A stretch of 48,528 nucleotides of DNA from a virus. Of the stretch, positions 2,281 through 44,120 are shown in pieces. The notes under the pieces are model-generated. The model worked only from the letters and a program-made list of their open reading frames with translations. It made no database searches and had not been told where the DNA came from. The position numbers and the translations under genes are program-made. Location: positions 1 to 48,528 of IMG/VR virus record IMGVR_UViG_3300031951_000269; one strand, written 5' to 3'. Numbering within the stretch: position 1 is the stretch's first letter; each line of letters opens with the position of its first letter.

Positions 2281-4014
2281 ATGCTTATAGAGACAACTGA
2301 AATTAATGGTTTCCTTATTGATAACTTTAACCAATACAAATTGGAAGAGGGTAAGACGCAGGGGGTATGCCCTATATGCTCATCAGATAGAAAACCTAAG
2401 AATGAAAAAGCTAAATGTGCTTCTTACGATTGGGAACGAGGTATTGGTACCTGCCACAATTGTAATAAAACATTTCAATTACATACATATAAAAGAAAAG
2501 GCAAAAGCGAAAAAGTATATGTAAAGCCAGAAAGAGATGCGGTATTAGATTCTGGATTAGAGTATCCTTTATCAGAGCCTATTGTAAAGTGGTTTGAAAC
2601 ACGTGGTATTTCTAAAGAAACTTTACATGAGCTACAAGTAACTGAGGGCAAAGAGTTTATGCCACAAACCGGCAAAACTGAAAATGCTATACATTTCAAT
2701 TACTTTATTGGCGATCAATTAATAAACATTAAATACAGAGATGGACGCAAAAACTTCAAATTATACAAAGGAGCTGAAAAGATTTTTTATAATATTAACA
2801 GCATTGTGGGTTTTGAATATTGCATTATTGTTGAGGGAGAGATGGATGTGCTCGCATTGCATGAAGCGGGAATTACAAATGCAATATCAGTGCCAAACGG
2901 CGCAACGTTAGGATCTAATAATCTAGAATATTTAGATAACTGTATTGATTACTTAGACGACAAGTCAAAGATCATTATTGCGGTTGATTCAGATACGGCT
3001 GGCCAAGCATTACAAACAGAATTAGTTAGAAGATTAGGGGCTGAAGTTTGTTATTTAGCATCATTTGAAGATTGTAAAGACGCTAATGAATATTTACTTA
3101 AATATGGAAAAGAAGCATTATCACAAAGAATATCAAGAGCAAAACCTGTGCCGTTGGAAAACGTTACTACGTTTAAAGACATTGAGGATGAGGTTACAGA
3201 CTTTGTCAGAAACGGTTTCAAACCTGGTTTCCAAATTGGTTTGGATAACTTTGATAGTATTTTTTCTACATACACTGGTCAGTTCATTACTGTTACCGGC
3301 ATTCCATCTTCTGGTAAATCTGATTTTGTGGATCAAATGATTGTTGGTTATAATGAAAAGTATGGCTGGAAGACTGCATATGCATCACCTGAGAATACGC
3401 CTACATATTTGCATGCTCACAAGTTAATGCGTAAAACTTGGCAAGGTATGCCTACAGTAGCGGATATTAAAACTGATAAGTGGAATCAGATCGCGGATCA
3501 TGTTAATGATAATTATTTCTTTATTGACATGGATCGTTACACATTAGAATCCGTATTACGTAAAGGAGCTGAGTTAGTTAAACGTAAAGGTATTAAATGT
3601 TTGGTTATAGATCCATTTAATAAAGTAAGAGCACAAGATGCTTCTGGTGATGTTAATGTTTATACATTAGAGTACTTAAGTCAAATAGAAATCTTTGCTA
3701 AGAAATACGATGTATTGGTTATTGTTGTTGCTCACCCTACTAAAATGTATAAAGATACAAAAGGTAACATTGAGGAACCAACCATGTATAATATCAAAGG
3801 TGGTGGCGAATGGTATGATGCATCTTATCACGGATTATTAGTTCATAGAAACTATGAAGAGAAGACTGTTAAAGTAAAAGTACTTAAATGTAAGTTTCAA
3901 AACCTTGGTGAAAATGGTGCTGAATGCCACTTTAAATGGGATCTGTCTTCTGGTTGTTTTGTTCCACACAATCCTAATCTAATTAGTGATGATAAATTAC
4001 CCTGGGAAGTATAA
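2281..4014 (+). CDS. Bifunctional DNA primase-helicase (T7 gp4/Twinkle type)
   Basis: This protein unwinds the replication fork and probably primes lagging-strand synthesis. Domains in order: a zinc-binding module with C30/C33 (CPIC) and C58/C61 (CHNC); a Toprim domain with E185 in VEGEMD and D236/D238 in DSDTAG; then a RecA-like hexameric helicase with Walker A GIPSSGKS (residues 340-347), Walker B LVIDPFN (D444), the AHPTK motif and a GGGEWYDASYHG segment near the subunit interface. The 577-residue length is normal for the family. All catalytic positions inspected are present, so both activities may be retained. Its stop abuts the next small gene. Confidence 0.92.
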   Translation: MLIETTEINGFLIDNFNQYKLEEGKTQGVCPICSSDRKPKNEKAKCASYDWERGIGTCHNCNKTFQLHTYKRKGKSEKVYVKPERDAVLDSGLEYPLSEPIVKWFETRGISKETLHELQVTEGKEFMPQTGKTENAIHFNYFIGDQLINIKYRDGRKNFKLYKGAEKIFYNINSIVGFEYCIIVEGEMDVLALHEAGITNAISVPNGATLGSNNLEYLDNCIDYLDDKSKIIIAVDSDTAGQALQTELVRRLGAEVCYLASFEDCKDANEYLLKYGKEALSQRISRAKPVPLENVTTFKDIEDEVTDFVRNGFKPGFQIGLDNFDSIFSTYTGQFITVTGIPSSGKSDFVDQMIVGYNEKYGWKTAYASPENTPTYLHAHKLMRKTWQGMPTVADIKTDKWNQIADHVNDNYFFIDMDRYTLESVLRKGAELVKRKGIKCLVIDPFNKVRAQDASGDVNVYTLEYLSQIEIFAKKYDVLVIVVAHPTKMYKDTKGNIEEPTMYNIKGGGEWYDASYHGLLVHRNYEEKTVKVKVLKCKFQNLGENGAECHFKWDLSSGCFVPHNPNLISDDKLPWEV

Positions 4015-4277
4015 TGGGTAGCGGTTATAAAAAAACAACTCAGATAGACATGGGTTTTTATGTGCCTACTATAAAAGAGCAATTAGCTTATTCTTGGTGC
4101 ATAAACAACGGTATATACATATCGCCTAAGCCATCAACAACCTCGTCTTGGCATTTACTTGTTGAAATAAATAAAAAAATAAGTATAAGTCCTGACGCAT
4201 ATAAGAAAGTAGAAATCTGGAAACAATTATATAAATTTTACACATACTATTACGATAAATATGCTATCACCAAATAA
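4014..4277 (+). CDS. Hypothetical protein
   Basis: An 87-residue protein I do not recognise. It is rich in Tyr, Trp and Lys, has no obvious membrane segment, and the centre (KPSTTSSWHLLVEI) could be a small beta fold. It is tightly packed: it begins at the primase-helicase stop and its end overlaps the ThyA-family start by 17 nt. This supports a real co-translated gene in the DNA-metabolism operon. Confidence 0.6.
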   Translation: MGSGYKKTTQIDMGFYVPTIKEQLAYSWCINNGIYISPKPSTTSSWHLLVEINKKISISPDAYKKVEIWKQLYKFYTYYYDKYAITK

Positions 4278-5052
4278 ACTATCAACAAGTAGATACGAAG
4301 AACAATATAAAAATATACTTGAACAATGCATTGCATTTGGAACTGAACGTCACGACAGAACAGGCGTCGGATGTTATTCTATTTTCAATGCAAGTTTGAG
4401 TATTGATTTAGGCGACGGTTTCCCTTTATTAACCGGTAGAAAAATGTTTGAGAAGACATTTAAAACTGAATTTGAATGGTTTATGAATGGTGAAACCAAT
4501 ATACAAAGATTCAGAGATGCTGGTGTAAAGATATGGGATGCCTGGGCAGATGAGAATGGAGATCTAGGGCCTGTGTATGGGCATCAAATGCGCAATTTTA
4601 ACGATCAAAATATAGATCAGATGCATAATCTATTAAATAACATAATGGACGATCCAGACAGCCGTAGACACATTATAAGCTTATGGAATCCTGCCCAATT
4701 AGCAGATATGAAATTACCTCCATGCTATTTGTATTTCCAATTCTTTGTTGATGGCGATAATATAAATATGTTTGTTGTTCAAAGATCAGGTGATCTATTC
4801 TTAGGTATACCTTATGATGTTGCTTTATTTTCGCAGATACTTATATATGTAGCTGAAGTAACCGGGTATAAGCCTAATAAACTAGATGTTCAAATTGTAG
4901 ATGCTCACGTTTATAAAACAAGTTCTCGTGCTGTTATGCAATATTTATTTCAAGATACATTTGATTTGCCAGATTATGAGTATAATAACGGAATATTAAC
5001 AATTATCAATTATAAGCACGGACCAGTAATTTCGGCTCCGGTTGCTGTTTAA
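4261..5052 (+). CDS. ThyA-family deoxynucleotide methylase; probable dCMP (hydroxy)methylase
   Basis: The 263-residue protein has the full thymidylate synthase scaffold: DRTG near the N-terminus, EWF..GETN, WADENGDLGPVYG, DPDSRR, catalytic C155 in PPCYLYFQF, the phosphate-binding QRSGD, and C-terminal PVAV. The decisive position is different. Thymidylate synthases have Asn in LGxPFNIA, which recognises the uracil ring, but here the segment is LGIPYDVA with D186 (GAT codon). Asp at this site occurs in T4 dCMP hydroxymethylase, and Asn-to-Asp mutants of thymidylate synthase act on dCMP. The product is therefore inferred to be 5-methyl- or 5-hydroxymethyl-dCMP rather than dTMP. Automatic annotation would call it thyA. 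Confidence 0.8.
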   Translation: MLSPNKLSTSRYEEQYKNILEQCIAFGTERHDRTGVGCYSIFNASLSIDLGDGFPLLTGRKMFEKTFKTEFEWFMNGETNIQRFRDAGVKIWDAWADENGDLGPVYGHQMRNFNDQNIDQMHNLLNNIMDDPDSRRHIISLWNPAQLADMKLPPCYLYFQFFVDGDNINMFVVQRSGDLFLGIPYDVALFSQILIYVAEVTGYKPNKLDVQIVDAHVYKTSSRAVMQYLFQDTFDLPDYEYNNGILTIINYKHGPVISAPVAV

Positions 5053-5063
5053 ATAAAAAAAAT

Positions 5064-5948
5064 ATGGAAAAAACTAAGAATTTATACTATATTTATCATA
5101 TTCCAGGCAAAAAAATTGGAATGACGCGTAATATTTATAACAGGGTCATTAAGTGCCAAGGATATAAACCTGGCGAATTTCAGATATTAGAATCGTCTTA
5201 TGATAAAGAATTTATAGAAAAGAAAGAACAACAATGGCAAAGATTTTTTAATTACAAAAAAGATTTTGCGTCTTATGACGAAGCAGAAAGAAGTCCTATT
5301 AATCAATTTAAATCAAATAAAACTATGTACACTAACGTAACAGATCAAACAACAACATTCAATGTCCCTGTAAACAAATTAAAAGGTTTTTTAATGGATA
5401 ATTTAGGGCATACATTTACAACAAGCTATGGAACATATACCGTAACTCCAGAGCTAGTCAAAATATTAATGGCTAACGTCAGAGAATCAATGTACCGCAA
5501 TACTGCGTGTTATGTATATAATAAAGTATTATTTGAAGCAGTTAATAAAATGTATAATACTGAGCCTGCTTCAACCGCTACTAATCCTGAAACTTTCGAC
5601 CCTAACAATGTATATGATTTAATTAGGCAATGGGCAAGCGATCGTGGTATATATACAAGTGGCGATTCTAAAACACAATATATAAAGTTGCAAGAAGAGT
5701 CTGGTGAATTAGCAAGAGCAATACTTAAAGATAATAAGTCTGAACTAATTGATGCTATTGGTGATATGATTGTTGTATTAACTAATTTGGCCGCATTAGA
5801 AGGATTAAAAGTTGAAGAATGTGTTGTATCAGCTTATGATGTTATTAAGTCACGACAGGGCTCTATGATCAATGGCACATTTGTTAAACAAGATTACGCG
5901 GCTTCAACGGCCCCTTCATTAACCGATCACATTAAAACAACATTATAA
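5064..5948 (+). CDS. GIY-YIG-like domain fused to MazG-type pyrophosphohydrolase
   Basis: Residues 1-75 resemble a GIY-YIG nuclease or DNA-binding fold (YYIYHIPGKKIGMTRNIYNR, then a Glu-rich helix). Residues 185-285 are a MazG-type all-alpha NTP pyrophosphohydrolase with the metal-binding EExxE (E211, E212, E215) and ExxD (E227, D230) motifs plus D234. Between them lies an unassigned linker. MazG-family enzymes hydrolyse (d)NTPs to monophosphates. Lying directly behind the ThyA-family gene, it could remove dCTP or another nucleotide from the pool. The start codon follows an A-rich leader without a Shine-Dalgarno site. The GIY-YIG assignment is weaker than the MazG one. Confidence 0.7.
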   Translation: MEKTKNLYYIYHIPGKKIGMTRNIYNRVIKCQGYKPGEFQILESSYDKEFIEKKEQQWQRFFNYKKDFASYDEAERSPINQFKSNKTMYTNVTDQTTTFNVPVNKLKGFLMDNLGHTFTTSYGTYTVTPELVKILMANVRESMYRNTACYVYNKVLFEAVNKMYNTEPASTATNPETFDPNNVYDLIRQWASDRGIYTSGDSKTQYIKLQEESGELARAILKDNKSELIDAIGDMIVVLTNLAALEGLKVEECVVSAYDVIKSRQGSMINGTFVKQDYAASTAPSLTDHIKTTL

Positions 5949-7111: not shown

Positions 7112-8983
7112 ATGAGTTTAAGCTTAGATAAGCAAATATTAAGTGACATCACGGTATACACTAAGTATGCTAAATATTTACCGGAAAAAGAAAGAAGAGA
7201 AACCTGGGAAGAACTAGTAACGCGTAATATGGAAATGCATACTGCCAAGTTCCCAAAAATGAAAGAATCAATTGAACAAGTTTATAAGAATTTTGTATTT
7301 ACTAAAAAAGTTTTACCTTCGATGCGAAGCTTGCAGTTTGGTGGTAAAGCTATTGAGCTTAATAACGCTCGCGTTTATAACTGTGCTTTCCTACCTGTTG
7401 ATAGTATTCATAGTTTTTCTGAGACTATGTTTTTATTGCTCGGAGGGACTGGCGTTGGTTATTCGGTCCAGAACCACCACATTGAGAAACTTCCTGAAAT
7501 TAGAAAACCTAACTACAATCGTAAGAAAAAGTATGTTGTTCAGGATAGTATAATTGGCTGGGCAGATGCAGTTAAGGCTTTATTTAAATCTTATACAGGA
7601 GGATTAACTTCGCATATAGAGTTTGACTTCTCTGATATAAGACCTAAAGGAGCTTTACTTATAACAGCGGGAGGTAAAGCACCAGGTCCTGAGCCATTAA
7701 GAATTGCGTTAGTAAAGATTGAAGCTGTACTACGTGAGAAAGATGATAGATCTAAACTAACAGATATTGAGTGCCATGATATTCAGTGCCATATTGCTGA
7801 TGCGGTTTTAGCAGGTGGTATTCGTAGAGCAGCAATGATTAGTTTGTTTGATCTTGATTCTGATGCAATGTTAAATTGTAAAGCTGGTAACTGGTGGGAA
7901 GACAATCCACAAAGAGGTAGGTCTAATAATTCTGTAGTATTGTTAAGGCATAAGATTGATAAGAGAACATTTGATAAAGTGTGGGAGCGTATTGAAGCAT
8001 CCGGATCTGGCGAACCTGGTATATACCTAACTAATGATAAAGATTGGGGAACTAATCCTTGTTGTGAGATCGCTTTAAGACCATATCAGTTTTGTAATCT
8101 TACAGAGATTAATATGGCTGATATTGAAAATCAAGAAGACTTTAATGCTAGAGCATCCGCCGCGTCATTTATTGGTACATTGCAAGCATCGTATTCAGAC
8201 TTTCACTACTTAAGAGATATATGGAGAAAAAACACAGAAAAAGACGCATTGCTTGGGGTATCAATGACCGGCATTGCATCAAAACACAATATACAATGTT
8301 TAAACTATGAAGAAGCTGCTCGAGTTGTTAAAGAAACCAATAACGTTATTTCTGCTGCCCTCAACATTAACAGAGCTGCAAGAACTACCGCTGTTAAACC
8401 AGCTGGCACTACTTCTCTTGTGCTTGGTACGTCTAGTGGTATTCACGCTTGGCATAACGATTATTACATTCGCCGTATGCGCTTAGGTAAGAATGAAGCG
8501 ATCTATTCGTATCTCGCAATAAATCATCCAGAACTGATCGAAGATGAATATTTTAATCCAACATTACAAGCAGTTGTTTCTGTGCCTCAGAAGGCTCCAG
8601 ATGGTGCCATAACACGACACGAATCAACATTAGATTTGTTAGAGAGAGTTAAATTAATTTCTAAAGATTGGGTTAAACAAGGTCATGATAAAGGTAATAA
8701 TACCCATAATGTTTCTTGCACTGTTTCTGTGCGTGATGATGAATGGAAAATCGTTGGTGAATGGATGTGGGCAAATAAAGAATACTATAATGGTTTATCT
8801 GTATTGCCTTATCACGGAGGTACATATAAACAAACGCCGTTTGAAGATTGTACTAAAGAAGTATATGAGCAGATGATGTCTACATTACATAATGTTGATT
8901 TATCTAAAGTAATTGAAATACAAGACAATACAAATTTTAGTGACTCTGCTGCTTGTGGAGGCGGTAATTGTGAAGTAATATGA
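7112..8983 (+). CDS. nrdJ: Monomeric class II (adenosylcobalamin-dependent) ribonucleotide reductase
   Basis: Converts ribonucleotides to deoxyribonucleotides for phage replication. The active-site loop is NPCCE (N315, C317 as thiyl radical site, E319); the redox cysteines are C91 (NCAFLP) and C328 (FCNLTEIN); and the C-terminal CGGGNC (C615, C620) is the reducing tail typical of class II enzymes. The 623-residue length and the AGGIRRAA segment fit the monomeric, RTPR-like form common in phages. No ATP-cone is visible at the N-terminus and no radical-generating subunit is present nearby, so cobalamin from the host would be needed. It overlaps the following oxygenase start by 4 nt (ATGA). Confidence 0.9.
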   Translation: MSLSLDKQILSDITVYTKYAKYLPEKERRETWEELVTRNMEMHTAKFPKMKESIEQVYKNFVFTKKVLPSMRSLQFGGKAIELNNARVYNCAFLPVDSIHSFSETMFLLLGGTGVGYSVQNHHIEKLPEIRKPNYNRKKKYVVQDSIIGWADAVKALFKSYTGGLTSHIEFDFSDIRPKGALLITAGGKAPGPEPLRIALVKIEAVLREKDDRSKLTDIECHDIQCHIADAVLAGGIRRAAMISLFDLDSDAMLNCKAGNWWEDNPQRGRSNNSVVLLRHKIDKRTFDKVWERIEASGSGEPGIYLTNDKDWGTNPCCEIALRPYQFCNLTEINMADIENQEDFNARASAASFIGTLQASYSDFHYLRDIWRKNTEKDALLGVSMTGIASKHNIQCLNYEEAARVVKETNNVISAALNINRAARTTAVKPAGTTSLVLGTSSGIHAWHNDYYIRRMRLGKNEAIYSYLAINHPELIEDEYFNPTLQAVVSVPQKAPDGAITRHESTLDLLERVKLISKDWVKQGHDKGNNTHNVSCTVSVRDDEWKIVGEWMWANKEYYNGLSVLPYHGGTYKQTPFEDCTKEVYEQMMSTLHNVDLSKVIEIQDNTNFSDSAACGGGNCEVI

Positions 8984-9543
8984 TCTATATAAAAGATGAT
9001 TTTTTAGATATAAATTTAATTGATTTGTTACGAACCAATAAGGATGAATTCCAGGAAGTAAAAACCCCTGGAAAATCCTTTTGGGTTAAGGAAGTTCCTA
9101 CGCCAATTATGCAAATTATAAAATTTGAACTTGAAGATTTAGAAGGTCATAGAATAGAACCTATATTAGGTTTTATGCGTGAAGCTAAAGAAGGACAAGA
9201 TCGTGATTGGCGCATTCATAATGATTCTATAATAGAAGGGCAACAACCTGATAGAGCTTGTGTATTGTATATATCCGATTGTAAACAAGAAGGATTAAAT
9301 GGTACGGCTTTTTGGGAACATAAGAAACATGGTGATAGATTCGAAAATGTTAGTCTTGCAGAACAAAATAGATTATTAAATGAAGATGCTAATGATCTTG
9401 ATTTATGGGATTTAAAATCTATTATAGGTCATAAAAAAAATAGATTGATATCTTATCCTTGTAATTACTTTCACAGTAAGTATCCTAATGAATTTGTAGA
9501 AAGTAGAATAGTATTTGTAATGTTTTATAAAATAAAAAAATGA
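8980..9543 (+). CDS. 2-oxoglutarate/Fe(II)-dependent oxygenase, prolyl-hydroxylase-like
   Basis: The iron-binding triad is visible: H80-N81-D82 (IHND) and distal H165 (NYFHSKYP), with R176 (ESRIVFVMFY) placed to bind 2-oxoglutarate. The double-stranded beta-helix layout and 187-residue length match P4H-like oxygenases frequent in environmental phages. The substrate could be protein or nucleic acid. Its coupling to ribonucleotide reductase and nearness to the ThyA-family enzyme make a nucleotide or base substrate conceivable, but this is inference. Confidence 0.75.
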   Translation: MIYIKDDFLDINLIDLLRTNKDEFQEVKTPGKSFWVKEVPTPIMQIIKFELEDLEGHRIEPILGFMREAKEGQDRDWRIHNDSIIEGQQPDRACVLYISDCKQEGLNGTAFWEHKKHGDRFENVSLAEQNRLLNEDANDLDLWDLKSIIGHKKNRLISYPCNYFHSKYPNEFVESRIVFVMFYKIKK

Positions 9544-9799: not shown

Positions 9800-12700
9800 C
9801 TATTTGTTTGCGTTTAATTTATCTAATATTTCTAGTCTTCTATCTCTTCTCCTAATTTTTTCTTCAATTTTTTTGTCCATATAATTATCGTATTCTTTTG
9901 GAGATAATTTATCAAGGCTATCCATTACTTTAATTTTATTTGTTTCCCTTGTTATTATAGATTTTTCCCATCCTTCTTCTTTCCGCTTTGCTTTAGCGGT
10001 TTCTTTTATAAGTATATCTCCTTTTGTTCCTTCAATACCTACTGTCCAAGGCGAATAACCCATTCCGGTCGCAAGTCTTTGCATGGCAGTATTTTCAGAG
10101 TTAAATGCTTGTGATACATTCTCAACCTTATTAACTAATCGATCCATAGGGAAGTTAGTTCCAACCTCAACAAGTTTTCCAGTTACAGAATACATAGGGC
10201 CTAGGTGAACTCTGCCATCCTGCATAACACCCCAGCCTCTTGCTTCTATTAAGTCCTTATCATATTTAGTTTGTTGTAACGCGCTATATGTTTTTCTTAG
10301 TTTAGATCCAATTGGTGGAGACATATTTGCTGCTTCAAGAACAACCTTAGCATATTCTGCTTTTTGTTTCTTAGCCCTTTCTTCAAGGTATTTAACAACA
10401 GTATTCTTTAATGTTGCTGCAACACCACCAACAAAACCAGTACCTCTAAGTATACTATCTAGTACTCCATTTGCAACATCAATAGCCGCATCAGTTTTTT
10501 TCTTTTTCTTTTTGTCTTCATCCTCTTCGTCATCATCAAACATAACGGCAAATAGACCTTGTTGTAATGTGGAGAACATTATGTTTTGTACTGCTAAGTA
10601 ATAAGCTATTTTAGCAATATTAGTTTTTGCATCACCTCTACCATTTTTAAGATCTAGTACAGCTTTTTTAACGATACGGGATTGCTGCATTGTAAAGTTC
10701 TGGAATACTAATAGTAATCTACCAGCACCACTTGACTGTTGTTTTGATATATCTTTTGGATCACCAGATTGCTGTGTTTCATCTGATACTTTAGAAAAGT
10801 CTTGCCATGCTTTTGCTTCCGCTTCCTGCTCTGTTAATCCTTCTTTTAAATAAGAGTTAATTCTATTTCTATAAAATGGAGCACCTCCAGAAGCAATAGC
10901 AAAACTATCCGCTAGTTGTGTTGGTGTATATCCAATCTTTAATAAATACGATGTTACCGCCACAACTTTATTTTTACTTCCCGCTGCAGCATTAGCAATC
11001 TCAGCAGATGCAACATCTTCTCTTAAACCACCACGTCTTTCTTTTAACTTATCTGAATTCCATATACGAGCGAAGTCCTTCCAGTATTGTGGTTGATTTA
11101 AGAATGCTTTGCCCGCATTGAATGGATTGTTGTCTCTCCAGTTTAAGAAGTTAACCGCTCCTAACATTTGCAATGCAGCAGATCTAGTGTTCATAAACAT
11201 GATAGCCCCTGTCGAACCATTTACCCAACTACTCCATGCAGTTGTTTCTTTATCCTGCCCAAAACTTCTATTCTTACCGTTTATCATTCTATATATAGAG
11301 TCTTCTAATGCTTCTCTAACATTTGTACCATAAACAGCTTCTACTTTATTTATATTAGGACCAACTAATCTGCCATCTTCCCACTTGCCAAAAATATTTT
11401 CTGTGTTTTCAATAAACTCCGCTAAGAATTTCTTTCTACCAGAACCTTCTGTTATATTATATAAGTCAGAAACAATAGTATCGGAATCCCAAAAAGTTCC
11501 TGGAGGTAACCAACCATCTTTTTGTCTCCCCATCACTATTAATCCGTCTTTAAATGCAGCAAGTTCAGGATCGTTATTAATAAGGTCAGTTAAATAAATT
11601 GTATCTCTTTGAGATAATCCTGGAATTTCTGTGCCATATTGACTCCATATTGCAACTCTCATTGCCTGATCATAAGTAAAGTCTTTATTAGGCGTTAACT
11701 TTTCAAGGTCTTTTTTAACCTCTGGGAATGATTTTAACAATGCTTTGTATTCCTTCTTAATAGATTGTCTTACAGCGTCCATTAAGTTAACTCCATTTAT
11801 ATATGGGGTTATTAAAGCGTCTTGGAAGAATTTCTTTTGCTCTTCCCCCAATGCCCCTTTACCCATAAAATTGTAAAGTAATAATTCAAAGTCCGCTGCA
11901 GAAGGTGGAACATAAAAATCAAATCTGTTTTTCTTTAATCCTCTTCTTCTTGCAGTAATATCAGAAAATACTTTGTAACTTTCTACACCTTTATTTTCCT
12001 CAATGATTCTATTGAAATCGTCAGACATGGTTTTACTAAACTTAATTTTAGCTTGTTGCCTTGGCGATTTAACATCAACTACATTTAAAACGTCTTGAAC
12101 CGCTTTGCTTTGATTTTCAAATGGTAAAATTCCTCTTCCTGCTGGATATTTAGATACTATGTATACTCCATTTTTAGAAAAAACATTCCATTTTAATTTG
12201 TTCGCTATTGTAGAAGCAATTGCATCATATAATTTAATCCTGCTAGGTTCTTTTGCAGTAAATATAAAACTATCTGTATTATTTGCATTTGCATAATCTA
12301 TTACTCCGTTTATTACTGTTCCAAAAACCTCCGCTGCATTACCCCCTCCTGTTATATCCGTAGAACTATTTTCATCAGAAAATACTAAATTTAACGTTTC
12401 TCCTTCATAAGAACCTAATAAAGCAGGTTCATCTAGGTCGTATTTATTTATCAAGGTATTTAAAGTAGCCTCAGTTCTATCTCCCCAATTAAAATAACCT
12501 GTATCTGTTAAGAATAAAGAATATTCTTTTCCTTTTACTTCAAAAGTAGCAAACTTGCTATCTCCAGTTTCTCTCCAATTTAAGTCTTGCCTAGAATTTA
12601 AAGAAAACTTAATACGTGCTTGTTGCACTTTTGAAGTTATACCAGGAACCTCTAAGGCTTTTTTAACGGCTTCTACATTTTGGGGAGCATCATCAGCAAA

Positions 12701-15700
12701 GTAAAAATCATTATATCCCTCTGCTGCTTTTGCAGTCATCCAATCCGCTTTTGCTTGAGCTGTACTGTTACCTAATCCCGTTATGTTTTCTAATGGTATG
12801 TTAATGCCTATTGACGATAAAAATTCGTGGATAGGGCCAGCAGCTTCTGGCGGACGAGCCGTAAGAATAAAGAAATTTTCTGGTCCAAATTTGCCAATCA
12901 TCTTCTTCATCTTTTCAACCATAGGCCCAGGTTTGCCGTCTACGACCTTACTAAATTCAGAAAAATCAAATACTGCACCTTCTTCCAAAAGTTTAGATCC
13001 ATTTTTAGCAAACTCCTCTGCGTTTAATTTTTTAGGCTCAGATATTATGGATGTATCAATTACCGCAATACTTGTTGTAAACCTACCGCTAACTTGAGCT
13101 CCATCATTGTAGCTTATAGCTTTTATATTGTCTTTTTTTAGAGCATCAAATAATTTTGTTATATCCGCTTTGCTTAATGACTCCTCAAAACGTGTGTCTA
13201 TTAACTCATAAAAAGAAACATCATCTACCTCAAATTCCTTATTTTTTGGAGTTAAACCCAATTCTTTAATTTTATTTATAACAACATCTTCATCAACAAC
13301 TTGAGAATTATTTATAACAAATTGTTGTGTTGTGCCGGAATTCATTCTAGCATACTCATCTGCTTCTCTTATATCCGTAGCAAAAAACTTAACTCCCTTG
13401 TCACTAATTTTTGTAACATCTTTTCCTTTAGGAGCGCCGTGATAAATTGGCAGATCGTTTGGCATTGTGTATAGCACACTACCTTTTGTTAATCCAACAG
13501 TGTCATCAAAATCAAAAACAGATATACCTTTTACAGATTTAGAAGGTTTTAAAGATTTTATAGTTGCCTCTTGACTATTACTAATATTTAATGCGTTTTT
13601 CCTTGCTTCGAAATTAATTTTTTTAATCTTTTTGCCTTTTCCATTTAGGATTGTTAAATCTTTTCCTCTTAAATCAATACCATTTGCTTTTAGCGCATTT
13701 AATACTTTTCCATCAAAATATCTGGCATTATATATATCATCTCCAGGTTTCCAACTTAATGGCATTCTGCTTTTAAGTATGGTATTTAATACATCATTAA
13801 TATGAGTAGGTAATAATGATATTTTACTTTCTTCTAAAAATTTTTTTAAATTTTCTTTAGTTATAATAGGTCTGTTTGCAAATGGCAGGTCTAATATATA
13901 AGATAATACAGCTCTAACACTTTCATCAGCCGGGATTGCATGTTCCCAGGTATACTCCTCTGCTTTTGTTAAATTTTCATCTAATATAACAGAATCAACT
14001 TTTGCTAATGTTCTTAATGGTGAATAGGTGCTAGATCCCATAAGTATAGCCGCCATAGCCTTAGCTTCGGGCGAGAGTGTGGAATTTTTAATTTTTTCTG
14101 CAAAAGCCATTACATCGGTTACAGATTGTTCGCTTTGGGCATCTCTAATTTTTTTATTGCCAATTATATTTAATCCTTTTAAAAATATATCATCAAAATC
14201 TTTACTTTTTGTTGTTTGACCCTCAATATAATTTGTATTTTCCCCATTCTTGTCAACAATTATGCTTATATTACCAACTTTTTTTAGATTATATCCTAAT
14301 TTTTTAAAACCATCAATTTTTAATAATTCATCAAATAATTTTGTATTTGATAAATAAAAATTTTTTCCTTTATCACCACCCGTAAGAACAGCTCTATATG
14401 TTCTTAAAAAAGTATTTACTTTATTAGTTTTTTCTAAATCGCTTAATTCATCATTATTTAAATCCTTTTCTAAATCACTTATTATAAAATTATTTATTTC
14501 ATTAATTTTTTCTTGATTATTTTTGGCAAAGTCTAATCCTTTTGGAGTAAGCCCTAATGCCATAGTTTTAGATGTTCCTGCAATTTCTAATTTTTTAGAA
14601 AAGTATTCATCAAAATCTTCTACTTTAGGATATTTATCTTTTAATTCTTTATTTTTTTTTGCAATTAACTTAGACAATAATTCTTTGGAATTATTAACAT
14701 ATGCAGTTTTCCATCTTTCTAATATATCTTCTAATTTATTTTTTATATCATTATCAATTACTTTTACATCTTTACTATTTAAATAATTAAATACCGATGC
14801 TCTATTTGTATAATTTAGATTTTTATAAAAATCATTAAACTCATTTGATATATTGTCTATTGCTCTTATACCCGTTTTAGAAAATTTAATATTACCTCTT
14901 TCAGATTGTCTGGCTATTTCAACAGCAAAAGCATTAGTCACTTCATAACCTAATCTTTCTTGATTAGTAACAAGAGCTTCGAATATCGGCCCTTCTTTAG
15001 CAAGGTCATCATTAATAATGTCAAAAGCCCCTTCTTCTGCCATTGCTTTTGACACTGATTCTTTTCTGCCTCTAATCGGATTACCGTCAGGCCCTATTAT
15101 TTGCGCTAAAAAATCTTCATTAGAAACATTATTATTAACATTAGGCAAACGTCTAACTAGTTCTGCTCCAGAAGTTCTCCCCGCTTGATCTGTAGTTGTT
15201 TTTTCTCTATCAATTTTTTGACCAACCCAATCAGGATAACTAACCCATTTACCATCAATTTGTTTTTGAATAGCTTGTGGTATGCCTCCTTGTCCATCTT
15301 TACCCATTAACCAAGTGGTGGTCATATTTTCAAGGATATAACGTTTATTCCTTAATAACTCTTTTCTAAGCACACCGTCTTTTTTGCCTCCAAGCATTGT
15401 CTTTATATCAATGTCTAATTGTTTCCCAACTTCGTCTCTTATTTCAGAAATTAATGGAGTTACAGTTCTATTTAATGTAACAGGAGCATCAATTCTATTT
15501 TTTAGTGTTCTAACTATTGTTACTATCTTGTTTGTAGCTGTTTTTAAGATCTCTGGGCTAAAAACATTTGATTCTAATGCATTCTTATATTTTGGCTTTT
15601 CTTTTGCCTCAGAAACAGTTTCTTCGGCTATTAAACCTTTTTCTTCTGTAACGTCTTTACTAAAGTCTTTGTCTAATACTCTTCTTGATGCAGCAATTGC

Positions 15701-18700
15701 TCTTAATGGTAATTGTTTATTTATATAAGCCGCTAAAGGCACTCCTGTTTCAGGCTTATAACTTCTAATAAGATAGAAAAGGCCACCGTCCCCAGTTTCT
15801 ATTTCGCTTGTTAACAATTCTCTATCAAAACCAGGAGCGTCCATTCTTTTATTTACTAATTTTTTAGTAATAGGTTTAAATAGATCTATAATCTCTTGAG
15901 CTCCATTTACTCCTTTTTCTTCATATATTCTTTGAACTTTATCAGAAGATATAGAGCCTCTTTCATTTTTTATTATTTCTTTATCTGCTTCTTCTTCTGT
16001 AACTTCTTTTTTAATTGTTGGTTTTGGCGCTTCTTCAGGCATTAATTTTGCTTTTGCTAAATCTGCCTCAAATATTTCAAGTCTACTTTCATAGTCTTCA
16101 TAATCAATTTCTCCTTTATCTAATTGATCTTCTAAATTATCTATCTTTTTTTGGACCTCAGCAACTTTTGCTTTTGACGCTTTAAATCCAGTAGCGGGAG
16201 TTTCTTCCGCAGCTTTATCTTCTGTATCAGAATTAATAAATCTTATATTTTGACCGGACTTAGTTCTTTTAGCCCCGGCTTTCTGACTATATGCTTTTAT
16301 TGTATCAAATAAAGCTTTCCCGGAATCCGTGCTAATATTTTTAATATCATATGTTGAAGATGTTCCAAACGCTCCTTTAGTTATTTTATTAACTACTTTG
16401 GATATTTGGGTAAATACATCGTCATTTGGTATTTTTCCATCACTAAAAGAATCTGAAAGGGCATTAAATACTTCTTCCCCATAAGCTTTGTACTCAGGCT
16501 TGTAAGCTTTCATTCTTTCTTCTACTGCCGCATAAAGTGATGGCTGTGCTGTTTTTAAATATTCAAGTAATTTTATACCGTTTTTATTTGCCTCCTCTTG
16601 ATTGCCTTGAAAAGCTTTAGACAGTACAGTATGCAATACCTCATGTGATCCAGTACTTGTATGCCCGTTTTTAATAGCGTTTGGTTTATATACTACCAAT
16701 GTATTATCATCTATATTAAACCCATTTGTTTTTCCATTTTTAAAATCTTTTAATTCTTCTTCATCTATAAATTTACCATATTTTTCTAATAATTCTTTTT
16801 CGCTATTTATTGTTTCAATTTTTATATTTAGCCCTAATTCTGTTGAAAAATCATTAGCAGCTTGAATATCCCTATCTAATTGTTTGCCAATTTCTTCTCC
16901 AGCATACAATTCTCTAGCTTTACTATCAACCTCTTTATTAGATAATTGATCCATAGTAGCGTCTTGGTTTAATTCTAACAATGCTAAATCATTATATCTT
17001 TGTTTTTCTTCTGATGATAATTTATCAAATCCAGCCAGTTTTTCAAGATAAGTTTTTCTAGTTAATCTTCTTTTATATAAATTATAACCAGCTGTAGCTT
17101 CAAATGTAATTCTTTTTTGAGCATTTTCTTTTTTATTTTTGCCAGTTAATTGCTTGTCGGTAAGCATTGCTTCTCTTGCGGCAAATACTTCATTGTATTG
17201 CTTTTGATAATATTCTTTTAATGATCTTAATTGAGCATCATCAATTCCAACTGTTTTACTAGCTTCATTCCAATCTCTTGTTATTTTTCTTAATTTCTGA
17301 TTAAAATCACCTACTTTTTTTGCATCCTCCATAGAAAAATCTTTGCCTAATCTATCTAATATACGAAGATCATCTCCGTCCATTTGATCAATAAGATCTT
17401 CTACAGCCTTTTTAATAGGCGGTTGTAATTTTAATTTATTAAGTTCTCTTTTTGTTAGTCCTGTAATATCATCTAAACCAGTAAGTTTTTTTATTTCATC
17501 AAGTTTTTTATTTCTTGCTTTAAATTCCTCTTTTGTGGCAAGTTCGCTAATAACACTTTTCGTAATATTATTACTTATTGTTCCAGCTCCTCCCATTGCA
17601 GAGAATCCAGGACCCATAAATGCTCCTCCAGCCATTGCATCTGGAACACCGTCAAAATAGTTTTTATCTTGTCCTAATAAATGAATATCTCCAAAGTTAT
17701 TAGCTAATTGAGTTAGGCCCTCTGTCCACGATTCAACACCGGCAGATTTACCCATTTCTTTACCAATAACTTTTAACTGGCGTTTGATTTCTTGAGGAGG
17801 TATAGCTCTAAGTATATTATCAGTTTGTTTTATAATACCTAAGGTACCATACTTTTCTAATAATACCTCTGCAGCACCGGCTAACACTTGAGATGTTAAC
17901 TTTGTTCCTTCTGATATATTCAATGTTTTTTTATCCGAGGCAATTTGCTTTTGCACATCGGCCATATCTTCTGCGGCAACTAATCCTTTATTAATTTGAT
18001 CAGCATTATATTGCAATCTACTAAGAGCTGATTCCTGCAAACTAGCAATTTCATATTGTTTTGAACCATAACCACTAAGAAAAAATAATGGCAATGCTGC
18101 TTCTCCTGTAACGGCCATAGCCATAGACGAAGGCATTTGAGTTAAAATCCCAGCTCCCCATCTGCCAAGATCTTTCATGCTCTTTATATCCTTAATTTGT
18201 AAATCACGTTGGTAAGATTCTAATTCTTTGCTAGCCGCTTTTTGCTCACCATATATAGGATCTAATAAAGTTTCTTTAAGTATACTTTTATTTCTTGTAT
18301 ATGTTTCACCAAATGAATCTCCATTGGCTACCGATTGAGCAAGTGCCAATTCAAAAGCCTTTGTACTAATACGTATATCCTCAGCCGCACCTGCTAAAGC
18401 TAGTCCAGTTTGCTTTAAAAATGTACCAGTTTGGTTTAATCTACTATAATCTTTTGATGCTGCTTCTGATACTGCTTTAATATTATTGAAATCTCTATTA
18501 AGTGTTAATGCTTCTTTATTATATGCATTTGATCTATTTTGTAATGCTAAATATTCTTTTTGAATTTCATCATATTCTTGTTTAGTAGGAGGCGTTTTTT
18601 GGAATTTAGCTATTTTTTCACTAAGAGCTTTACCCGCTTTATCTAATTCATCACTTTCTACCGATAGTTTTACTTTTCCTTCTATGGCTTTATCCTCACG

Positions 18701-19681
18701 CTCCGATTCTAGGGCGAGCAACATTGTCCGTTGTTCTTGAGGAGCATCAGACATTAATTCCGCTGATTTACTATCTCTATAATTATTGTTTTTTTCCTTA
18801 ATAAACTTTTCTAATTTTACCTCACTAGGCAACGGTATTTGACCTGTCTTTTTCCAATATTCATATAAATTATATTTTTCTGGACTATCAAAATCTTTTT
18901 TAGTTGGCTTTACTGCATCAATGTATTTTCTTTGTGATGCAGACATATAGCCACTATTTGCTCTTAAACGGCTTTTTATAGACTCCTCTTTGTTCTTAAA
19001 CTCGTTTATTAAATCTTCGTTATATTCTTTTACTTTTGTTTCCCAAGGCCTAGTAGGAGCTTGTATTTTTTGTTCAGCGTCTCTTACTAAATTTGGATTT
19101 TCTTTTTTAACTTTCTGAATATAGTCTTTATTACCATATTTGCCTATATAGTCATTTAATATTTTTGCACTAGCTATAAGTTCTTCTTTAGATGCGTCTG
19201 CCCCTACAACAACCTCTGGTAAATCATACATTCCTGTTGAAATACCGCTTGGATCCACAACATGTTCTAATTGTTGTTTTTTATCCCCTCTAAGTGTAAT
19301 TCTATTAACTCCAAAAACTTTTTCTTCAGGAGTTAATCCAAATCTAGCTACTCTTTTTTGAAGGTTTTCCGCTACAGTTGTTTCTTCAGCTTTAAGATCT
19401 TCCCACGTAACTACCTCATTCCATTTTTTAGCAACAGGTTTTTTCTTCTTAGTTTTATTAATTTCAGAAAATTGATCTTTTGCAGGATTCTCAAACCCAA
19501 ACGTTTTTTTATAAACATCCTCACCAAACCTTTCGTCAAGTTTAGCGGGTTGCTTTGTTTTTTTAGAAGCAGGCTTGAAACCTTTACTTTTAATATAAGC
19601 CGGGAGTTTGTCTTTACCCCCGGCCATTTTAATTAAATCTGCTTCTGTATATATTTTACCGTTTAATTCGTATTCTAGCAT
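9800..19681 (-). CDS. Giant polyvalent internal virion protein (3293 aa)
   Basis: It resembles the phage polyvalent proteins thought to be injected with the genome. Segments seen in order: coiled-coil and hydrophobic N-terminal region; zincin-like HEVLH (1013-1017) with E1069/E1070 as likely third ligand; sigma-region-2-like segment (about 1277-1335, KPETGVPLAAYINKQL); HAD-like phosphatase with D2057/D2059/T2061, T2274 and D2330/D2331, interrupted by an ADP-ribosyltransferase-like insert (YHG at 2080-2082); acetyltransferase-like segment (about 2365-2540); and a long C-terminal region shared with phage ejection-type proteins, with hydrophobic helices around a charged DDDEEDEDKKKKKK hinge near 3050. 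IKFS-like motifs recur at domain junctions. No RNA polymerase DxDGD motif was found. It is the last gene of the late operon. Confidence 0.85.
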   Translation of the reverse strand: MLEYELNGKIYTEADLIKMAGGKDKLPAYIKSKGFKPASKKTKQPAKLDERFGEDVYKKTFGFENPAKDQFSEINKTKKKKPVAKKWNEVVTWEDLKAEETTVAENLQKRVARFGLTPEEKVFGVNRITLRGDKKQQLEHVVDPSGISTGMYDLPEVVVGADASKEELIASAKILNDYIGKYGNKDYIQKVKKENPNLVRDAEQKIQAPTRPWETKVKEYNEDLINEFKNKEESIKSRLRANSGYMSASQRKYIDAVKPTKKDFDSPEKYNLYEYWKKTGQIPLPSEVKLEKFIKEKNNNYRDSKSAELMSDAPQEQRTMLLALESEREDKAIEGKVKLSVESDELDKAGKALSEKIAKFQKTPPTKQEYDEIQKEYLALQNRSNAYNKEALTLNRDFNNIKAVSEAASKDYSRLNQTGTFLKQTGLALAGAAEDIRISTKAFELALAQSVANGDSFGETYTRNKSILKETLLDPIYGEQKAASKELESYQRDLQIKDIKSMKDLGRWGAGILTQMPSSMAMAVTGEAALPLFFLSGYGSKQYEIASLQESALSRLQYNADQINKGLVAAEDMADVQKQIASDKKTLNISEGTKLTSQVLAGAAEVLLEKYGTLGIIKQTDNILRAIPPQEIKRQLKVIGKEMGKSAGVESWTEGLTQLANNFGDIHLLGQDKNYFDGVPDAMAGGAFMGPGFSAMGGAGTISNNITKSVISELATKEEFKARNKKLDEIKKLTGLDDITGLTKRELNKLKLQPPIKKAVEDLIDQMDGDDLRILDRLGKDFSMEDAKKVGDFNQKLRKITRDWNEASKTVGIDDAQLRSLKEYYQKQYNEVFAAREAMLTDKQLTGKNKKENAQKRITFEATAGYNLYKRRLTRKTYLEKLAGFDKLSSEEKQRYNDLALLELNQDATMDQLSNKEVDSKARELYAGEEIGKQLDRDIQAANDFSTELGLNIKIETINSEKELLEKYGKFIDEEELKDFKNGKTNGFNIDDNTLVVYKPNAIKNGHTSTGSHEVLHTVLSKAFQGNQEEANKNGIKLLEYLKTAQPSLYAAVEERMKAYKPEYKAYGEEVFNALSDSFSDGKIPNDDVFTQISKVVNKITKGAFGTSSTYDIKNISTDSGKALFDTIKAYSQKAGAKRTKSGQNIRFINSDTEDKAAEETPATGFKASKAKVAEVQKKIDNLEDQLDKGEIDYEDYESRLEIFEADLAKAKLMPEEAPKPTIKKEVTEEEADKEIIKNERGSISSDKVQRIYEEKGVNGAQEIIDLFKPITKKLVNKRMDAPGFDRELLTSEIETGDGGLFYLIRSYKPETGVPLAAYINKQLPLRAIAASRRVLDKDFSKDVTEEKGLIAEETVSEAKEKPKYKNALESNVFSPEILKTATNKIVTIVRTLKNRIDAPVTLNRTVTPLISEIRDEVGKQLDIDIKTMLGGKKDGVLRKELLRNKRYILENMTTTWLMGKDGQGGIPQAIQKQIDGKWVSYPDWVGQKIDREKTTTDQAGRTSGAELVRRLPNVNNNVSNEDFLAQIIGPDGNPIRGRKESVSKAMAEEGAFDIINDDLAKEGPIFEALVTNQERLGYEVTNAFAVEIARQSERGNIKFSKTGIRAIDNISNEFNDFYKNLNYTNRASVFNYLNSKDVKVIDNDIKNKLEDILERWKTAYVNNSKELLSKLIAKKNKELKDKYPKVEDFDEYFSKKLEIAGTSKTMALGLTPKGLDFAKNNQEKINEINNFIISDLEKDLNNDELSDLEKTNKVNTFLRTYRAVLTGGDKGKNFYLSNTKLFDELLKIDGFKKLGYNLKKVGNISIIVDKNGENTNYIEGQTTKSKDFDDIFLKGLNIIGNKKIRDAQSEQSVTDVMAFAEKIKNSTLSPEAKAMAAILMGSSTYSPLRTLAKVDSVILDENLTKAEEYTWEHAIPADESVRAVLSYILDLPFANRPIITKENLKKFLEESKISLLPTHINDVLNTILKSRMPLSWKPGDDIYNARYFDGKVLNALKANGIDLRGKDLTILNGKGKKIKKINFEARKNALNISNSQEATIKSLKPSKSVKGISVFDFDDTVGLTKGSVLYTMPNDLPIYHGAPKGKDVTKISDKGVKFFATDIREADEYARMNSGTTQQFVINNSQVVDEDVVINKIKELGLTPKNKEFEVDDVSFYELIDTRFEESLSKADITKLFDALKKDNIKAISYNDGAQVSGRFTTSIAVIDTSIISEPKKLNAEEFAKNGSKLLEEGAVFDFSEFSKVVDGKPGPMVEKMKKMIGKFGPENFFILTARPPEAAGPIHEFLSSIGINIPLENITGLGNSTAQAKADWMTAKAAEGYNDFYFADDAPQNVEAVKKALEVPGITSKVQQARIKFSLNSRQDLNWRETGDSKFATFEVKGKEYSLFLTDTGYFNWGDRTEATLNTLINKYDLDEPALLGSYEGETLNLVFSDENSSTDITGGGNAAEVFGTVINGVIDYANANNTDSFIFTAKEPSRIKLYDAIASTIANKLKWNVFSKNGVYIVSKYPAGRGILPFENQSKAVQDVLNVVDVKSPRQQAKIKFSKTMSDDFNRIIEENKGVESYKVFSDITARRRGLKKNRFDFYVPPSAADFELLLYNFMGKGALGEEQKKFFQDALITPYINGVNLMDAVRQSIKKEYKALLKSFPEVKKDLEKLTPNKDFTYDQAMRVAIWSQYGTEIPGLSQRDTIYLTDLINNDPELAAFKDGLIVMGRQKDGWLPPGTFWDSDTIVSDLYNITEGSGRKKFLAEFIENTENIFGKWEDGRLVGPNINKVEAVYGTNVREALEDSIYRMINGKNRSFGQDKETTAWSSWVNGSTGAIMFMNTRSAALQMLGAVNFLNWRDNNPFNAGKAFLNQPQYWKDFARIWNSDKLKERRGGLREDVASAEIANAAAGSKNKVVAVTSYLLKIGYTPTQLADSFAIASGGAPFYRNRINSYLKEGLTEQEAEAKAWQDFSKVSDETQQSGDPKDISKQQSSGAGRLLLVFQNFTMQQSRIVKKAVLDLKNGRGDAKTNIAKIAYYLAVQNIMFSTLQQGLFAVMFDDDEEDEDKKKKKKTDAAIDVANGVLDSILRGTGFVGGVAATLKNTVVKYLEERAKKQKAEYAKVVLEAANMSPPIGSKLRKTYSALQQTKYDKDLIEARGWGVMQDGRVHLGPMYSVTGKLVEVGTNFPMDRLVNKVENVSQAFNSENTAMQRLATGMGYSPWTVGIEGTKGDILIKETAKAKRKEEGWEKSIITRETNKIKVMDSLDKLSPKEYDNYMDKKIEEKIRRRDRRLEILDKLNANK

Positions 19682-43418: not shown

Positions 43419-43863
43419 TATCTCTTGTTTTATCTTTATTCACGTTCTCTATAGCCGTTATTCTAAGCTTGTCCATATGAGTTTTGCCACTCATTATAAT
43501 ATTTCTATGACTTGTAGGCAAATCTTCTTTACCAAGCATTATACGGTACATCCTACTTATTAGTTGTTTACACTTAAATGAAACTTTATATATATTGTAT
43601 TTTTGGGTTGTATGGTTTCTATTTCTCCAAACCACTATCCACCCTTCTTTTAATAAATTGTTCCAGCGTTTATTGTCCCAACTGTAAGCATAAGTACCTA
43701 TTTTATAATCTTGTTTGGTAAAAAATTCCATACAATCAAAATAGATTAGTAATTCTAAATCCGCATCTGTTAAATCATTATTCCTACAAGCCCATCTACG
43801 TATTATTCTATAGTGTTTTAATAAACCTATATCTCTAATATCTGAAGGTTCTAAGCGGCTCAT
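43408..43863 (-). CDS. Winged-helix-like DNA-binding protein
   Basis: A 151-residue protein starting MSRLEPSDIRDIGLLKHYRI. It contains a segment resembling a MarR-type winged helix: LTDADLELLIYFDCMEFFTK, then NNLLKEGWIVVWRNR (recognition helix and wing), then YKVSFKCKQLISRMY. Such proteins are conserved in environmental phages. It could regulate late genes or, being next to the chaperonin genes, their operon. Its start overlaps the GroES stop by 4 nt (ATGA). Confidence 0.55.
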   Translation of the reverse strand: MSRLEPSDIRDIGLLKHYRIIRRWACRNNDLTDADLELLIYFDCMEFFTKQDYKIGTYAYSWDNKRWNNLLKEGWIVVWRNRNHTTQKYNIYKVSFKCKQLISRMYRIMLGKEDLPTSHRNIIMSGKTHMDKLRITAIENVNKDKTRDNEY

Positions 43864-44120
43864 AATACAACTACAACATCGTCTAATCGTATAACGTAAT
43901 AAGTTTCTTTCCCAGGTTCTATTTTATGACCATTATGTCTGTCATAAAATATATTATCACCTTCTTTAACCCCTACTACTTCGTCACCAACACTAATAAC
44001 TTTGGCTTCTATATATCTAATATCTTCTCTGTGATTTTCAGCTAATAGAAGGCCTCCTTTTGTTTCTGTAGTACCTTCTTTTACTTTTTCTATAATTAAT
44101 CTTTTACCAACTGCTTTCAT
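43860..44120 (-). CDS. groES: Co-chaperonin GroES
   Basis: An 86-residue Hsp10: AVGKRLIIEKVKEG, a mobile loop with TKGGLLLAE (hydrophobic LLL in place of the usual IVL that contacts GroEL), EAKVISVGDEVVGVKEGDNI and final YYVIRLDDVVVVL. It should cap the adjacent phage GroEL. The gene follows groEL with a one-base TAATG overlap, the reverse of the bacterial groES-groEL order. The loop change could tune affinity to the phage chaperonin. Confidence 0.9.
   Translation of the reverse strand: MKAVGKRLIIEKVKEGTTETKGGLLLAENHREDIRYIEAKVISVGDEVVGVKEGDNIFYDRHNGHKIEPGKETYYVIRLDDVVVVL

Follow-up and report, generated by a model that had tools for sequence, protein, structure and literature searches.

The window analysed here, an IMG/VR virus record of 48,528 bases (32.7% GC), carries a thymidylate synthase (TS) homologue. 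Judging from its sequence and its relatives, this is most likely the gene of a dCMP methylase through which 5-methylcytosine would enter the phage DNA. In this homologue the Asn that selects dUMP is replaced by Asp. This Asp-type gene, its neighbours, the gene content of sister phages and the fact that restriction sites are not avoided together suggest that the phage DNA contains methylated cytosine as a protection against restriction enzymes.

The phage and the gene neighbourhood

The phage is podovirus-like and uncultured; phages related to it by their terminase have Flavobacteriia as hosts (Flavobacterium elemo phages, 45%; Cellulophaga; Maribacter). The nearest annotated relative is MW202828 (terminase 63%), and no near DNA matches of the window were found in phage records. 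The TS homologue is part of an operon-like series, preceded by genes for an Erf annealing protein, an exonuclease and a primase-helicase and by an 87-aa ORF, and followed by genes for a MazG-type pyrophosphohydrolase, a resolvase-like DUF1064 protein and ribonucleotide reductase. The features used below are as follows.

2281-4014, + strand: primase-helicase (phrog_239, 2.9e-88), the upstream marker of the exchange slot, in the same position in phages with the Asp-type TS and in those with a hydroxymethylase-like gene
4014-4277, + strand: 87-aa ORF (phrog_5945, 4.4e-5), conserved in the slot as its upstream border
4261-5052, + strand: Asp-type TS homologue, predicted dCMP C5-methylase (PF00303, 4.6e-73; phrog_160, 7.8e-81)
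4723-4728, + strand: codons TGC TAT of the catalytic Cys155 and of Tyr156 (E. coli His147 position)
4816-4818, + strand: codon GAT of Asp186 (E. coli Asn177, T4 gp42 Asp179)
5038-5049, + strand: C-terminal PVAV tail of TS type (VAV or VAI in close relatives; absent from T4 gp42)
5064-5948, + strand: MazG/PRA-PH pyrophosphohydrolase, candidate dCTP pyrophosphatase (PF01503, 7.6e-6; PF03819, 1.1e-5; phrog_1992, 1.5e-35)
7112-8983, + strand: apparently B12-type ribonucleotide reductase, encoded in the same operon (phrog_367, 2.5e-132; below the cut-off, PF02867, 9.7e-9, and PF21995, 8e-5)

The product of 5064-5948 also has a weak N-terminal MUG113 match and contains EESGE...ELID, which we take to be the MazG metal-binding pattern. 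The ribonucleotide reductase is predicted to supply deoxynucleotides. In one related genome (G005; L038:1-2087 and the end of L041) this gene is found in two pieces with about 750 bases between them, possibly an intron or intein; the window gene is continuous. The adjoining ORF at window positions 8980-9543 (+) contains an HxD...H pattern that hints at a 2-oxoglutarate oxygenase. It was set aside as a 5-methylcytosine oxidase, having only a sub-threshold DUF6445 match and being missing from some relatives (G004, G009). Elsewhere, the window encodes a GroEL and GroES pair (43860-45664, -), which is kept in relatives, and a 3293-aa ORF (9800-19681, -), the length of which varies among them.

An Asp-type thymidylate synthase homologue

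The earlier note had described the ORF at 4261-5052 as a ThyA homologue, and its product of 263 aa indeed matched the PF00303 profile over positions 1-266 of 266, with the catalytic Cys present. The details given there were also borne out: the TS motif LGxPFNIA reads LGIPYDVA, with Asp186 in place of the dUMP-selecting Asn, and Cys155 (PPCY, from residue 153), QRSGD (from residue 174) and DPDSRR (from residue 131) are kept. Pfam and PHROGs both label the gene as a thymidylate synthase, so that automatic annotation does hide it as thyA. In the alignment with ThyA and T4 gp42-type enzymes that had been proposed as a check, Asp186 falls on E. coli Asn177 and on T4 gp42 Asp179.

Asp186 was kept in all 31 IMG/VR relatives (68-97% identity), encoded by GAT in 23 and by GAC in 8, and is therefore neither an error nor a chance substitution. 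The dN/dS values of five close pairs (0.10-0.22) indicate purifying selection on the window-type gene. Relatives are encoded, with a match to the Asp-type motif, in at least 576 IMG/VR stretches, and no cellular relatives were found in genome_contigs. The window-type gene is the sole TS in each of 24 records, and no second TS, ThyX, DHFR or dCMP deaminase was found in the relatives in these records. The AlphaFold model (pLDDT 72, pTM 0.79; weak in the active-site loops) has E. coli thymidylate synthase as its best PDB fold match, and the solved structures closest to the window protein are all thymidylate synthases.

A second active-site change, missing from the earlier note, is the replacement of the usual His (E. 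coli 147) by Tyr156, which is invariant in a 12-sequence clade alignment; Tyr185 lies beside Asp186. In MetaGPA, TS homologues from cytosine-modified and from unmodified contigs were best told apart at positions 177 and 147, with Asp177 in the modified set, and co-occurrence of Asp177 homologues with a PF01503-type pyrophosphohydrolase was reported (Yang et al., PMC8670742). Asp at this position marks the cytosine-using members of the superfamily (MilA, PMC5175136; T4 enzyme, PMC6400193), and this is the residue present in the window protein; the Asn typical of dUMP-specific TS is found neither there nor in the 31 relatives. The earlier proposal that the Asn-to-Asp replacement leads to dCMP use thus gains support from the conservation of Asp and from Tyr156 at the second MetaGPA position, and the neighbouring pyrophosphohydrolase, the exchange with a hydroxymethylase-like gene and the unpurged sites described below also agree with it. 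In all probability, the window enzyme handles a cytosine nucleotide.

Methyl or hydroxymethyl product

The signature of hydroxymethylases combines an acidic residue (Asp or Glu), three positions ahead of the catalytic Cys, with a Ser or Thr that precedes Tyr by two positions, and T4 gp42 lacks the C-terminal tail that seals the active site in TS (Park et al., PMC6400193). At these positions the window protein has Leu152 and Pro104 (before the conserved Tyr106), and it retains the PVAV tail; Trp95, Leu152 and the tail are all of TS type. The ribose preference of MilA is marked by Ala and Lys at the positions where the deoxyribose type has Ser and Arg (PMC5175136). The window protein has Ser176 and Arg135, the deoxyribose type, and so differs from the CMP hydroxymethylases MilA and BcmA. 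It combines Asp at the E. coli 177 position with the methyl-transfer machinery of TS (Asp186, Leu152, Trp95 and PVAV), the combination expected of a dCMP methylase with Xp12-like activity. Laboratory mutants with the same replacement, L. casei TS N229D and E. coli N177D, make 5-methyl-dCMP (cited in PMC8670742). Taken together with the mutants' product, residues Leu152, Pro104, Trp95, Ser176 and Arg135 and the tail would make the conversion of dCMP to 5-methyl-dCMP, with release of dihydrofolate, the likeliest reaction. The choice between methylase and hydroxymethylase had been left open, and these residues and the intact C-terminal tail favour the methylase; provided that a cytosine nucleotide is used, the product is likely methyl rather than hydroxymethyl. 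Against this explanation, no DHFR was found to recycle dihydrofolate, and no nucleotide kinase for 5-methyl-dCMP was identified.

In the route that we infer, Cys155 would attack C6 of dCMP, and Asp186, standing in for the Asn that selects uracil, would both recognise N3 of cytosine and protonate it. A one-carbon unit and then a hydride would be donated by 5,10-methylene-tetrahydrofolate, yielding 5-methyl-dCMP and dihydrofolate; hydride transfer rather than hydration is expected because the TS-type tail, Trp95 and Leu152 would exclude water. The adjoining MazG-type enzyme would split dCTP to dCMP, both supplying the substrate and lowering unmodified dCTP. Phosphorylation to 5-methyl-dCTP would fall to kinases, presumably the host's, and 5-methylcytosine would enter the phage genome during replication; many restriction enzymes would then be unable to cut it.

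Exchange of the gene in sister phages

In three sister phages reached via the terminase (G122, G125 and G130), the slot between the primase-helicase and the MazG fusion gene holds another TS-superfamily gene, of 212-218 aa, and a homologue of the 87-aa ORF was detected at the slot in G122 and G125. The slot genes are as follows.

L360:13191-13844, + strand: gp42/MilA-type hydroxymethylase-like slot gene of a sister phage
L366:6171-6809, - strand: gp42/MilA-type hydroxymethylase-like slot gene of a sister phage
L369:14064-14720, + strand: gp42/MilA-type hydroxymethylase-like slot gene of a sister phage

This alternative reads NDTPC, with Asp three positions before Cys, SNYGW and MRSNDIWYGFCND, and it lacks a TS tail. 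Among solved structures it matches the CMP hydroxymethylase MilA (7e-19) and T4 dCMP hydroxymethylase (8e-16) best, ahead of every thymidylate synthase. The terminase and primase trees each require two exchanges between the gene types. The alternation of one locus between enzymes that have only the cytosine-selecting Asp in common argues for dCMP as their shared substrate. It is conceivable, although our confidence falls a little short of even, that within one phage clade a single slot of the replication operon alternates between two dCMP enzymes, a TS-like methylase and a hydroxymethylase of gp42/MilA type, both served by the same MazG-type enzyme, and that close relatives are thus protected by 5-methylcytosine or by 5-hydroxymethylcytosine. 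Such alternation would perhaps occur under pressure from modification-dependent restriction. No shared candidate for a glycosyltransferase specific to the hydroxymethylase-slot phages was seen in the list of their specific ORFs.

The window enzyme might itself be a dCMP hydroxymethylase, in which water quenches the methylene intermediate to give 5-hydroxymethyl-dCMP as in T4. Asp186 is common to T4 gp42 and MilA, a gene of their type occupies the same slot in the sister phages, and the Asp177 enzymes of MetaGPA stem from contigs with either modification. However, the window protein has neither the Asp145-type residue nor the Ser of Ser-x-Tyr, and Leu152, Trp95 and the sealing tail are present. 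Furthermore, its nearest solved structures are all thymidylate synthases, whereas the slot alternative matches MilA and the T4 hydroxymethylase first. We therefore consider a hydroxymethylase unlikely and retain the dCMP methylase as the preferred reading.

Asp-type and Asn-type homologues in other viruses

A survey of 177 distinct viral TS homologues comprised 118 Asp-type and 59 Asn-type sequences. At the E. coli 147 position, the Asp-type sequences had Tyr (94), Phe (12), Pro (9), His (2) or Leu (1), and the Asn-type sequences had His (57) or Met (2); at position 176, Phe or Tyr was found in the Asn-type and nearly always Tyr in the Asp-type. In 107/118 Asp-type and 0/59 Asn-type cases, an NTP-pyrophosphohydrolase was encoded on the same strand no more than 300 bp away; for DHFR, the corresponding counts were 4 and 14. 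Since the pyrophosphohydrolase profiles had been seeded from Asp-type neighbours, the comparison was repeated over whole records with Pfam MazG (PF03819), which was found anywhere in the record in 40/50 Asp-type versus 3/59 Asn-type cases. Asp-type genes with a pyrophosphohydrolase adjacent or near were also found in marine phage MedDCM-OCT-S28-C10, Edwardsiella phage ZHX and Vibrio phage VPMS1, and a homologue of the MazG-type gene at 5064-5948 was present in all genomes compared that have either the Asp-type TS or the hydroxymethylase-like gene in the slot. As a point against the methylase reading, one Asp-type gene (L106:2956-3786), with Leu at 147, has an adjoining DHFR and no pyrophosphohydrolase, and was placed among the Asn-type genes.

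In the TS tree (102 sequences), the Asp label needs four changes and the well-supported branches force only one, so the association between Asp and the pyrophosphohydrolase rests on a handful of events; a sign test on this tree had few independent pairs. Furthermore, the terminase relatives elemo and Panino have pyrophosphohydrolases without any TS, and this gene may therefore be ancestral in the viral group.

These data also bear on whether the window enzyme is still a thymidylate synthase using dUMP, with Asp tolerated at position 186, or an enzyme using both substrates. The full TS catalytic set and the tail would fit such an enzyme, as would its being the sole TS in 24/24 records without ThyX or DHFR; MW202828 carries ThyX, and the viral group can therefore benefit from a supply of dTMP. 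However, no member of the clade has reverted to Asn, even though the codon used for Asp varies, the window protein has Tyr at both 147 and 176, where the Asn-type enzymes have His or Met and Phe or Tyr, respectively, and the Asp-type nearly always has Tyr at 176, and dUMP use leaves the hydroxymethylase-like exchange and the unpurged sites unexplained. It appears slightly less probable than a hydroxymethylase, and the dCMP methylase is again the better reading.

Restriction-site avoidance

Four-base palindromes were counted against a second-order Markov expectation, and a site was considered purged when at least 25 copies were expected and no more than 5% of these were seen. A looser test on 6-mers had produced scattered calls at chance level, and 4-mers with this minimum expectation were used instead. 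G128 and G129 were left out because their contigs lack the replication module. Purged palindromes were found in 0/17 genomes with the window-type gene and 0/3 with the hydroxymethylase-like gene, versus 7/8 terminase relatives with neither gene (GATC, CATG, CTAG or CCGG), in which purging was often total, with observed/expected counts of 0/203 and 0/193 for GATC, 0/181 for CATG, 0/189 for CTAG and 0/47 for CCGG. Fisher's test for this clade contrast gave p = 7e-6, with few lineages and counts that are not independent; the purged set consists of one terminase clade and two outgroups, and the independent contrasts therefore number about two or three. In other phages, purging was seen in 0/10 Asp-type versus 5/20 Asn-type genomes (p = 0.14, not significant alone). 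No DNA methyltransferase (PF00145, PF01555, PF05869) that could explain the protection was found.

Complete site loss (GATC, CATG, CTAG or CCGG) was recorded in G115-G118 (L371-L381), MW202828 (L049, L051) and Panino (L274); three of the purged phages are also without CCAG/CTGG, and MW202828 is nearly so. These losses suggest strong restriction pressure from several enzymes on related phages.

GATATC, unlike other palindromes, is strongly depleted both in phages with the Asp-type TS (58 of 260 expected) and in hydroxymethylase-slot genomes (5 of 51), perhaps owing to an EcoRV-like enzyme tolerant of modified cytosine. Its depletion in the Asp-type phages counts against the methylase reading. 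GGTACC, the KpnI site, is scarce in the window-type phages (56 of 137 expected). KpnI is among the few enzymes that cut Xp12 DNA fully (PMC7653180). GGTACC is scarce also in relatives without the gene, and its scarcity is therefore compatible with 5-methylcytosine and not diagnostic.

It is improbable that the sites are unpurged simply because the hosts have no such enzymes, with the neighbourhood merely inherited and the role of the enzyme in DNA modification incidental or lost: although no host is assigned to any contig and the purged relatives are one terminase clade and two outgroups, the enzyme is under purifying selection and two independent exchanges keep a cytosine-modifying gene in the slot.

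Significance and comparison with known systems

If the dCMP methylase reading is right, nucleotide-level 5-methylcytosine, known in Xp12, would be widespread among uncultured aquatic phages but concealed by the thyA label. The exchange with a hydroxymethylase-like gene would allow two protection chemistries to be compared in naturally paired, near-identical phages, and whether restriction sites are purged or not would offer a route to predicting modified genomes from sequence alone. No description of the locus exchange or of the purging contrast was found in the literature searched, and these are the parts that would be new to a specialist.

The kind of enzyme is already known, and the window protein bears both of its marks, sharing with the MetaGPA Asp177 homologues Asp at 177 and a residue other than His at 147. 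Methyl and hydroxymethyl products were not separated in MetaGPA; for comparison, the 24 records of the window clade have no dCMP deaminase match.

For dCMP methylation of the Xp12 type, the comparison phage was AXL1. The Xp12 genome is fully 5-methylcytosine, and AXL1 is a relative with the same restriction resistance, for which the authors gave no genetic cause (PMC9206674). In AXL1 gp63 (L052:2980-3921), annotated as TS, the motif reads LPYDV and so includes Asp, and an adjacent gene encodes a nucleotide pyrophosphohydrolase, an arrangement like that of the window; this Asp-type TS is a candidate cause of the AXL1 resistance. Unlike the window enzyme, it lacks a TS tail and carries Pro, Val and Phe at positions 147, 143 and 83, respectively, and its gene neighbours include DHFR and dCMP deaminase. 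The tail and Leu are therefore not required for 5-methylcytosine, if AXL1 makes it.

T4 gp42 has in common with the window enzyme the Asp for cytosine, the catalytic Cys and the fold, but it has the hydroxymethylase signature and no TS tail. MilA also has an Asp186, the equal numbering being coincidental, and has Ala and Lys where the window protein has Ser176 and Arg135 (PMC5175136). In L. casei N229D and E. coli N177D, the same single substitution in a TS-like active site turns a TS into a dCMP methylase; in the window enzyme, by contrast, the replacement occurs in nature, is kept across a viral clade and goes together with Tyr156 and Tyr185.
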